From: Collimonas fungivorans
GTDB lineage: Bacteria; Pseudomonadota; Gammaproteobacteria; Burkholderiales; Burkholderiaceae_D
Length of the DNA: 48,515 nucleotides
Assembly: GCF_028292705.1 (NCBI RefSeq)
Contig: NZ_JAQGLV010000297.1
Coordinates: forward strand, 1-48,515
Direction: 5' to 3'
How positions within the stretch are numbered: position 1 is the first letter of the stretch; every line of letters starts with the position of its first letter. The translations under genes and the position numbers were made by a program. Positions 11,074-45,602 of the stretch are shown here, piece by piece. The notes under the pieces are model-generated. The model searched no databases. It was not told the origin of the DNA and saw only the letters and a list, made by a program, of their open reading frames with translations.

Positions 11074-11580
11074 TTAGGCCAGTTGCGCCAGCAGGGTTTC
11101 CGCATTGGACACTTCGAACTTGCCGCCCTGCTCCACGTTCAGCTGCTTGACCACGCCGTCGTCGAGCAGCGCCGAAAAACGTTGCGAACGCACGCCCATG
11201 CCGAACTTGCCGAAATCGGCGTCCAGGCCCAGCGCCTTGACGAAATCGGCATTGCCGTCAGCCAGCAAACGCACGATGCCGGTGGCTTTCTGGTCACGGC
11301 CCCAGGCGCCCATGACGAATGCATCGTTGACGGAAACCGCCCAGATTTCATCGACGCCCTTGGCCTTGAATTCCGCCGCGTGCTGGATGTAGCCAGGCAG
11401 ATGCTTGGCGGAGCAGGTCGGCGTGAAAGCGCCCGGCACGGCGAACAAGGCGATTTTCTTGCCCTTGACCAGGTCGCTGACATTGAACGAATTTGGTCCG
11501 AGCGAGCAGCCTTCGGTCTCGGTTTCGATGAATTCTGCTAATTTGCCTTCCGGCAGGCGATCGCCGATCTTGATAGTCAT
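11074..11580 (-). CDS. Prx5-type peroxiredoxin
   Basis: VPGAFTPTCSAKHLPGYI active-site motif; start trimmed to MTIKIGDRLPEGKLAEF. Confidence 0.94.
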   Translation of the reverse strand: MTIKIGDRLPEGKLAEFIETETEGCSLGPNSFNVSDLVKGKKIALFAVPGAFTPTCSAKHLPGYIQHAAEFKAKGVDEIWAVSVNDAFVMGAWGRDQKATGIVRLLADGNADFVKALGLDADFGKFGMGVRSQRFSALLDDGVVKQLNVEQGGKFEVSNAETLLAQLA

Positions 11581-11680
11581 GACTAAGTCCTTGTCTAGGT
11601 GTGGATGCCCTGAAGCCCATGGCGCAACGCTATGGCGCGCGCCGGTATTCCAGAGGCACGGAATGTTGGCGGATGCTACA

Positions 11681-14352: not shown

Positions 14353-15120
14353 TTATTTTTTCTTGCTTCCCAATCCGGTCGACAAGCCACTCGCCTTCAG
14401 CGCCAAGCCATTCGGATACCGCATATCTACACTCTCAATCCGGTTCTGCAAACGCGACAGCAGCTGCGGATAAATCTGCACCAGCCGCTCAACACGATCT
14501 TTCAGCGTGCTCTTGTCTTGCTCACGCCCCAACTCCACCGTCATGCCGTTGTCCAGTTTCACGGTCCACGCATAACGGCTCGACAAATCCACCTCTACCG
14601 GGTTCAGCTTCAACGGCGCAAACCATGCCCGAAAATCCGCCAGCCGCGCCGTGACGTCTTTCTCGCTGCCTTTCGGACCTGACAAGCGCAGCAGTTCGCC
14701 GTCTTCCTCCGCCTCGTCCAGGTTGGCGGTAAATAAATCGCCATACACCGACAGCAGGCGGCCGTCATCGTCCCAGGTGGCCAACGGCTGATGCTCTTCA
14801 ATCGTCACGATCAGCGTGTTCGGCCATTCGCGCTGCACCGCCGCCTTGCGCACCCACGGCACCGATTCGAATGCGCTGCGCACCGTATCCAGGTTAGCCG
14901 TGAAAAAGTTGCCCTTGATGCGCGGCAGCGCGCTGGCGCGGACGATCAACGGATTGACGCGCCGCAGCTCGCTCTGCCCCGCACCTTCGATCCTGATCGT
15001 CTTCAGCGTAAACATCGGACGCTGCGCCAGCCACCAGACGCCCGACGCCAACAATGCGAGCGCAGCCAGTCCCAGCAGGGTGCCGGAAATCGCGTTCAAC
15101 ATTTTGATGTCTTGCCACAT
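14353..15120 (-). CDS. ftsQ: Cell division protein FtsQ (POTRA domain)
   Basis: Single TM near N-terminus; FTLKTIRIEG...LPRIKGNFFTANLDTVRSAFESVPWVRKAAVQREWPNTLIVTIEEHQPLATW. Confidence 0.96.
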   Translation of the reverse strand: MWQDIKMLNAISGTLLGLAALALLASGVWWLAQRPMFTLKTIRIEGAGQSELRRVNPLIVRASALPRIKGNFFTANLDTVRSAFESVPWVRKAAVQREWPNTLIVTIEEHQPLATWDDDGRLLSVYGDLFTANLDEAEEDGELLRLSGPKGSEKDVTARLADFRAWFAPLKLNPVEVDLSSRYAWTVKLDNGMTVELGREQDKSTLKDRVERLVQIYPQLLSRLQNRIESVDMRYPNGLALKASGLSTGLGSKKK

Positions 15121-15179
15121 GGTTATCGACTTTATCGCTTGGATCGTTAAGGTTTTCTATTCAGGTTTTTCCACCCGGA

Positions 15180-44195: not shown

Positions 44196-44624
44196 TTAGA
44201 GTTCAAGTGCTTTAGGTTGCTGCGCGGTGTGCGGATGGCTGCCATCTGCGTACACTTTGAGCTTCTTGATCATGGCGTAGCCAAGCGGACCCTTAGGCAG
44301 CATGCCCTTGACCGCTTTTTCCAGCGCACGACCTGGAAAACGCTGTTGCATTTTCTGGAAATTTGTTTCGTAGATGCCGCCTGGGTAACCGGAGTGACGG
44401 AAATACGTCTTGTCGGTTGCCTTGGCGCCAGTGACGCGCAGTTTACCTGCGTTGATGACGACGATGAAATCGCCGGTATCAACGTGAGGAGTAAATTCGG
44501 GTTTGTGTTTGCCGCGCAGTCGGAGTGCCACTTCGCTGGCAACACGTCCGAGGACTTTGTCCGTCGCGTCAATCACGAACCAATCACGCTGGACTTCATG
44601 GCCCTTAGCGGAAAAAGTTTTCAT
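44196..44624 (-). CDS. rplM: 50S ribosomal protein L13
   Basis: [45 protein letters not shown]. Confidence 0.99.
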
Positions 44625-44884
44625 GTTGACTTCCTAACTAGTTTAATTCGCTCAAATGGTGGTTCCGCCGCTATCGAAAAACCGGCTTTTAGACCGGAGC
44701 ATCGTCCTGCATCAGCGACAGACTCTTCCTTGTTATCTTTTCCTGAGCAAACGGAAAAGCCGTAAATTATAGCCTTTTCAAGGACTTGGCGTCAAACCGA
44801 TTGAAAAAAATGGCCGTTTGCGCTATGGGATGTTGTAAATGCGGTTGTAAACAGGGCGGTAAACACCTGCAACCGCTCCTGCAG

Positions 44885-44990
44885 ATAAAAGAAAACCCGA
44901 ACTGCGCTGTGGCGTCGGGTTTAAATCCACTCCTGTGGAGGGGTGGAGGAGACATGGCGTTAATTGCCGAGAATCAATCTCGCAACGGTT
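44885..44990 (-). ncRNA. Candidate small RNA (~105 nt) between rplM and osmC: hairpin, CU-rich hairpin, terminator
   Basis: - strand hairpin CGAGA-ttgat-TCTCG (44968-44982), CU-rich CTCCTCCACCCCTCC, second stem CCACCCCT/AGGAGTGG, terminator AAACCCGA...TCGGGTTTTCTTTT (44922 down to ~44884). Confidence 0.6.
44893..44922 (-). terminator. Rho-independent terminator of the candidate sRNA
   Basis: AAACCCGA (44893-44900) pairs with TCGGGTTT (44915-44922); - strand U tract TTTTCTTTT. Confidence 0.75.
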
Positions 44991-44996
44991 AGATTG

Positions 44997-45025
44997 ATAT
45001 TAGCAAACAGAATTGTGCATCGCAA
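44997..45025 (-). promoter_or_regulatory. Predicted sigma70 promoter for the candidate sRNA
   Basis: - strand TTGCGA (45020-45025), 17 nt spacer, TAATAT (44997-45002). Confidence 0.6.
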
Positions 45026-45155: not shown

Positions 45156-45602
45156 ATGGAATGCACTGTTCGCTGGACCGGCTCGTCCGGCATGACGTTT
45201 TTGGCAGAAACCGGCTCCGGCCACATTTTGACGATGGATGGCGCGCCGGACGGCGGCGGCCGCGACCTGGCGCCGCGGCCGATGGAAGTGGTGCTGGCCG
45301 GCACCGGCGGCTGCACTGCTTATGACGTAGTGCTGATCCTGCGCAAAAGCCGCCAGGATATCCGCGGCTGCGACGTCACGCTGAAATCGGAACGGGCGGA
45401 GACAGAGCCTAAGGTATTCACCAAGATCCATTTCCACTTCACCGTACGCGGCCGCAACCTGAAGCCCAACCTGGTGGAACGCGCGATCAAGCTGTCGCAT
45501 GAAAAATACTGCTCGGCCTCGATCATGCTGGAAAAAACCGCTGTAATCACCCACTCCTTCGACATCGTCGACGACCTGGCGGAAACCGCAATCGAAGCCT
45601 AG
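45156..45602 (+). CDS. OsmC family protein
   Basis: MDGAPDGGGRDLAPRPMEVVLAGTGGCTAYDVVLILRKSRQ. Confidence 0.94.
   Translation: MECTVRWTGSSGMTFLAETGSGHILTMDGAPDGGGRDLAPRPMEVVLAGTGGCTAYDVVLILRKSRQDIRGCDVTLKSERAETEPKVFTKIHFHFTVRGRNLKPNLVERAIKLSHEKYCSASIMLEKTAVITHSFDIVDDLAETAIEA

Follow-up and report, generated by a model that had tools for sequence, protein, structure and literature searches.

A Collimonas fungivorans member of the RF02278 small RNA family between rplM and osmC, with a conserved PhaR-type site at its promoter

Introduction

The best described counterpart of the RNA considered here is NcS27 of Burkholderia cenocepacia J2315, a 92-nt RNA with a mapped transcription start site (PMC5688073), whose minus-strand gene is flanked by BCAL3348a and BCAL3349 (PMC4603805). 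BCAL3348 has been named as a ribosomal protein gene (PMC5688073) and BCAL3349 is a plus-strand gene of around 423 bp after re-annotation (PMC4603805). NcS27 levels rise in biofilm, on starvation and in glucose medium, and its leader is cleaved to leave a short form; over-expression slows growth while antisense to the CU-rich end has the opposite effect (PMC5688073). A second well-studied RNA, S17 of Bordetella pertussis, depends on Hfq, is shortened by RNase E cleavage from its 190-nt form to one of 67 nt, and represses BP2158 through pairing that was proven with compensating mutations; 27 nt of S17, including the 5' seed, are conserved order-wide (PMC11722255). Closer in taxonomy, Hsnc059, Hsnc063, Hsnc086 and Hsnc107 are listed among the expressed sRNAs of Herbaspirillum seropedicae (PMC7011215). 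These four, of lengths 93-115 nt, share both the Rfam family (RF02278) and the bacterial family of the Collimonas RNA.

Small RNAs have also been tied to carbon storage. MmgR (alpha-r8) of Sinorhizobium meliloti is Hfq-dependent and is negatively controlled at the level of transcription by AniA (PhaR), and riboregulation of PHB in Cupriavidus necator was described as undeciphered in a 2021 review (PMC8401924). Here we describe a locus in the window, by which we mean the whole 48.5-kb stretch of Collimonas DNA analysed, at which an RF02278 RNA and a PhaR-type promoter site are found together.

Results and Discussion

The sRNA gene and its parts

The original prediction placed a promoter, a hairpin, a CU-rich stretch and a terminator between rplM and osmC, and all of these are indeed present in the sequence at those positions. 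The features of the locus are as follows.

44886-44990, minus strand: sRNA gene, primary transcript of about 105 nt from the promoter and terminator positions, its start near 44990 placed from the promoter
44887-44954, minus strand: RF02278 core of about 67 nt (cmscan, fold z), the probable processed 'double-hairpin' form
45013-45025, minus strand: TTGCGATGCACAA, conserved operator-like site of which the -35 box is a part, matching the core of the PhbF/PhaR motif
45025-45020, minus strand: -35 hexamer TTGCGA, with a 17-nt spacer to the -10 box
44997-45002, minus strand: -10 box TAATAT, preceded by TGC (extended -10), aligning with TATAAT/TATATT of relatives
44963-44986, minus strand: 5' leader hairpin (TTGCGAGA...TCTCGGCAA) from folding, expected to be removed by processing
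from 44954, minus strand: CU-rich TGTCTCCTCCACCCCTCC
44945-44954, minus strand: seed UGUCUCCUCC, anti-Shine-Dalgarno, equivalent to 'Site 1' of S17, nearly invariant in orthologs and in copies across the order
44926-44947, minus strand: hairpin 1 with the second CU-rich stretch, whose inner CCU pairs with AGG so that the stretch is partly closed
44886-44922, minus strand: intrinsic terminator, hairpin 44922-44893 and T-run to 44886
44766-44795, minus strand: separate rplM promoter (TTGACG-18-TATAAT), from the promoter scan
44196-44624, minus strand: rplM (ribosomal protein L13, Pfam PF00572), downstream neighbour
45156-45602, plus strand: osmC-like gene (Pfam PF02566), divergent neighbour

By consensus alone the sRNA promoter is weak, with 8 of 12 hexamer positions matching, a score under the threshold of the promoter scan. 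Simple promoter and terminator scans of the window accordingly list neither the sRNA promoter nor its terminator, the latter having been missed because its loop is long. It is thus homology and conservation that carry the case for the gene. In the orthologs, the promoter, the CU-rich stretch and the two hairpins are all conserved. The fold is also more stable than expected of its composition: the 105-nt RNA yields a z of -3.07, with 1 of 200 shuffles equally stable, and the 70-nt form a z of -4.00, with 0 of 200. The pairing described earlier between the CU-rich segment and AGGAGTGG, in 7 of 8 positions, is correct.

A 62-amino-acid frame does exist from the ATG at 44955, and would speak for a small protein gene or a dual-function RNA. 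It runs through the terminator, however, and relatives differ both in the base that precedes TGTCTCC and in the length of what follows. Since the frame is not conserved, the small protein was rejected and we consider a coding role scarcely credible; the earlier statement that no convincing coding sequence lies between promoter and terminator holds.

Membership and spread of the RF02278 family

Whether the RNA corresponds to an existing Rfam family had been left undecided, and cmscan of the whole window gives a clear answer. RF02278 (Betaproteobacteria_toxic_sRNA, 'double-hairpin RNA') matches positions 44887-44954 of the minus strand at 53.5 bits (E = 4.7e-8) against a curated gathering cut-off of 50 bits, over the full length of the model (1-64), and it is the sole Rfam family above cut-off in the window. 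The features of the family, namely two hairpins, a CU-rich 5' seed and a terminator with a U-run, are all seen in the window RNA. The sRNA is real but is no new RNA: it is a local copy of a known betaproteobacterial family. Identities as anti-hemB, ar14 and SpF01 were rejected on Rfam scores far under cut-off, that of anti-hemB (RF02837) being 17.6 bits against a cut-off of 49.5.

The family is widespread among relatives, occurring in 47 of 60 of them and in 128 of 200 genomes of the order, with none in 14 control genomes. The host genome (4.5 Mb in 418 contigs) contains nine matches, eight of them above cut-off, and close relatives with full-size genomes contain 9-14 copies; RF02278 is multi-copy in most of the host's bacterial family. 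Among 24 diverse copies, at least one compensatory change is seen in 8 of 13 consensus pairs, and in 5 of 7 pairs of the terminator stem. The first eleven bases, seven of which precede the stem, are nearly invariant among the same copies. The second CU-rich stretch, partly closed by inner pairing in Collimonas, forms an open CUCCUCC loop in most relatives.

The copies are often clustered. On one contig of the host genome three lie within 4 kb (11177-11241, 11540-11607 and 15111-15177), one relative has three exactly 185 nt apart, and another has five within 15 kb. Local duplication therefore seems to expand the family in Oxalobacteraceae.

The family name raises the question of whether the RNA is the toxin of a toxin-antitoxin pair. 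Family members are toxic on a cloning vector in E. coli according to work cited in PMC4603805, and the slowing of growth by over-expressed NcS27 (PMC5688073) points the same way, yet growth inhibition is to be expected from any over-produced anti-Shine-Dalgarno RNA. No conserved partner, whether RNA or protein, was seen next to the sRNA, the family has many chromosomal copies, and the window copy lies in conserved synteny. Furthermore, S17 is non-toxic in E. coli (PMC11722255), and toxicity is therefore no defining activity of the family. A toxin is thus a very improbable reading of the window RNA.

The locus between rplM and osmC and its orthology with NcS27

We compared 110 loci around the OsmC gene, in 101 of which rplM is also present. 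Flanked by rplM and osmC and oriented like rplM, the RNA is found in Collimonas, Herbaspirillum, Undibacterium, Glaciimonas, Paraburkholderia, Caballeronia, Ralstonia and other genera, a synteny shared across many Oxalobacteraceae and Burkholderiaceae. In Paraburkholderia orthologs a leader hairpin is visible that differs in sequence. The intergenic gap measures 390-840 nt where the RNA is present.

Position upstream of rplM on the same strand, at every intact locus, is also what would be expected of an attenuated, cis-regulatory 5' leader of rplM, and BCAL3348 of B. cenocepacia likewise has a short 5' UTR transcript (PMC5688073). This reading, raised as a reservation when the RNA was predicted, is nevertheless improbable. 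A strong rplM promoter (TTGACG-18-TATAAT at 44795-44766) lies downstream of the sRNA terminator; many relatives, Massilia relatives, Janthinobacterium and Oxalicibacterium among them, keep both rplM and osmC without the RNA, in a gap of mostly 180-330 nt; and other RF02278 copies lie elsewhere in the genome. The separate promoter and the loci lacking the RNA led us to reject the leader.

The arrangement between rplM and osmC is the same as that published for NcS27 in J2315, and from this shared arrangement we take the window RNA to be the NcS27 ortholog. What is added to the known family is a new member, one whose ortholog has already been characterised. The two RNAs share synteny, the order of leader, seed, hairpin and terminator, and a similar size (NcS27 measures 92 nt before its leader is cleaved off). 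They differ in that the second CU-rich stretch is partly paired in Collimonas, unlike in most relatives, and in genomic copy number, nine in the Collimonas genome, compared with four in J2315 and between three and five in other Burkholderia. With S17, to which the RNA is likened by published description, it has in common the 5' seed and, by prediction, removal of a leader to give a 67-nt form and target classes comprising transporters and catabolism, whereas S17 has a longer primary transcript (190 nt) and is BvgA-controlled. The best explanation of the feature as a whole, and one we hold with high confidence, is that it is the Collimonas ortholog of NcS27 in RF02278, a probably Hfq-assisted anti-Shine-Dalgarno sRNA that would lower translation of uptake genes.

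Proposed mode of action and seed-matched ribosome sites

Expression, processing, use of Hfq and repression by the window RNA would follow from the behaviour of its relatives. A sigma-70 promoter is predicted to drive an RNA of about 105 nt ending at its own terminator. Leaderless RF02278 paralogs start at TGTCTCC, while the window copy, from the position of its promoter, has a leader; in S17 the cleaving enzyme is RNase E, and similar cleavage probably takes the leader hairpin off the window RNA, leaving about 67 nt with UGUCUCCUCC free at the 5' end. With Hfq, this seed could pair with Shine-Dalgarno regions of mRNAs encoding mainly transporters, porins and catabolic enzymes, and the pairing would reduce translation of these mRNAs during slow growth or under carbon excess. 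As originally suggested, our best reading is a riboregulator that acts in trans and has an anti-Shine-Dalgarno stretch. Members of the family are expressed, and one of them, S17, depends on Hfq and represses its target by proven pairing.

The seed-complementary heptamer GGAGACA occurs 1-7 bases before an ATG at 83 places in the genome, compared to 4 for the reversed pattern, an excess to be expected of any ribosome site. The first 30 of the 83 places by contig order were taken. At 21 of them the gene has a Pfam match, and 13 of the 21 encode transporters, solute-binding proteins or porins, as against 3 of 22 control genes, from unrelated stretches, having another GGAG site (Fisher p = 0.0016, from a small sample whose functional classes were assigned once the hits were known). 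The enrichment agrees with the published target classes, although GGAGACA may be preferred in uptake genes for other reasons. The complement of the full 10-nt seed, GGAGGAGACA, was rejected as a target finder: outside the sRNA genes it has a single genome site, before a very short frame. Pairing must therefore be shorter, and its specificity is uncertain.

The conserved promoter site and PhaR

The original prediction took TTGCGA as a -35 box. The box is present and conserved, but it is only the start of a longer operator-like site, TTGC[N]3GCA[N][N]A, which had been overlooked. The pattern TTGCN3GCANNA is kept at the promoter in 32 of 35 orthologs, most often as TTGCRNYGCACAA, and 31 of the 32 site-bearing orthologs have a -10 box behind it, separated by a 17-nt spacer (by 16 nt in two cases); in the row for the window another hexamer, at spacer 15, scored equally, TAATAT at 17 being present.

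PhbF, the PhaR of H. seropedicae, has a footprint-supported motif TG[N]TGC[N]3GCAA (PMC3206438). Read on the other strand this motif is TTGC[N]3GCA[N]CA, whose core TTGC[N]3GCA is found in the window at 45025-45013. The full motif is absent from the window promoter, which has GCACAA and hence one outer mismatch. PhaR itself is encoded in the host genome (PF07879, 106.7 bits). The 13-base pattern TTGCRNYGCACAA is found there in two places, 80-136 nt ahead of a phasin reading frame, and these phasin-gene sites carry the same one-mismatch variant as the window site; a related palindrome, TTGCAATGCAA, precedes phaR. Exact PhbF-type sites are present at -35 in the RF02278 copies without a leader from Burkholderia, Paraburkholderia and Ralstonia (for example TTGCGTCGCATCA, TTGCAATGCACCA, TTGCAACGCAACA).

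Searching the whole genome with a loose pattern (TTGCNNNGCACMA) gave 74 hits and was discarded as unspecific, most of the sites examined lying inside genes; others near gene starts precede sbcB-like, AraC-type, OmpR-type and DUF3683/FAD genes, with no clear PHB theme. We therefore give weight only to the -35 position, the phasin context and a comparison across genomes. For the latter, a strict site, TTGCRNYGCANMA, was sought within 130 nt upstream of those RF02278 copies listed among the better matches, and PhaR was recognised as PF07879. Among 90 order-mates the site is present in 31 of 63 genomes with PhaR and in 1 of 27 without (Fisher 2e-5), counts that ignore the relatedness of the genomes and the clustering of PhaR loss in certain families. 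By copy, the figures are 31 of 76 from PhaR genomes and 1 of 35 from genomes lacking it, with 0.13 sites expected per 76 copies from dinucleotide shuffles. The one PhaR-less exception is a genome of 85% completeness, and the sampled members of its family do have PhaR.

PhaR control of the sRNA promoter is accordingly put forward as a hypothesis from sequence comparison, and it would not extend to every copy. The strict site is absent in 45 of the 76 copies from PhaR genomes, several whole families among them, and from the other examined copies of the host genome; control by PhaR is therefore proposed for the window copy and many others, not for all.

These absences, in more than half of the copies in PhaR genomes, are also what would be seen if the conserved site served another regulator or were merely a strong -35 context, as is the one mismatch between GCACAA of the orthologs and GCA[N]CA of the PhbF motif read in that direction. 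We nevertheless think such an explanation rather unlikely, given that conservation over 13 bases goes beyond a -35 box, that the TTGCRNYGCACAA pattern is doubled before the host phasin gene, that the Burkholderia, Paraburkholderia and Ralstonia paralogs have exact PhbF-type sites at -35, and that presence of the site follows PhaR across genomes.

A possible carbon-storage circuit

On balance we favour, with some reserve, a circuit in which many Burkholderiales RF02278 sRNAs belong to the PhaR regulon: PHB granules would titrate PhaR off the DNA, the sRNA would be switched on, and uptake of carbon and amino acids would be shut down through masking of GGAGACA-type sites. If this is true, carbon storage feeds back on nutrient import through RNA, and the rise of RF02278 RNAs in glucose medium, for which no regulator is known, would be explained. 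With a regulator named and its binding site known, the question of RF02278 control would also become directly testable, and PHB-producing betaproteobacteria would gain a storage-linked sRNA circuit like that of MmgR and AniA in S. meliloti. MmgR, an Hfq-dependent sRNA of a carbon-storage circuit, is a precedent for the one proposed; it differs in RNA family and bacterial class and in affecting phasins, and the PhaR link of RF02278 is by comparison only inferred. The conserved PhaR-type site in the promoter of an RF02278 sRNA looks new: no link between PhaR and the family was found in the literature open to full-text search, and we make no claim to priority.

Promoters of other RF02278 copies show further variety. 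In small genomes (around 2 Mb) of one family a single copy is kept, and its -35 position coincides exactly with a PhaR-type site. In many genomes that lack PhaR, the copies have in common an AT-rich promoter (AATATTAGATAATnCTnATAAC) where the operator would stand, which suggests that promoter replacement accompanied PhaR loss. A different motif (approximately AATAnCTGnTATnnnnnnnATAAA) is found 40-70 nt upstream of the RNA in many leaderless paralogs, whose -10 box is TATAGT, and this is perhaps the site of a second regulator of the family. Finally, in one genome an RF02278 copy (2180464-2180529) lies around 1 kb from the phaR gene (2181468-2181647).
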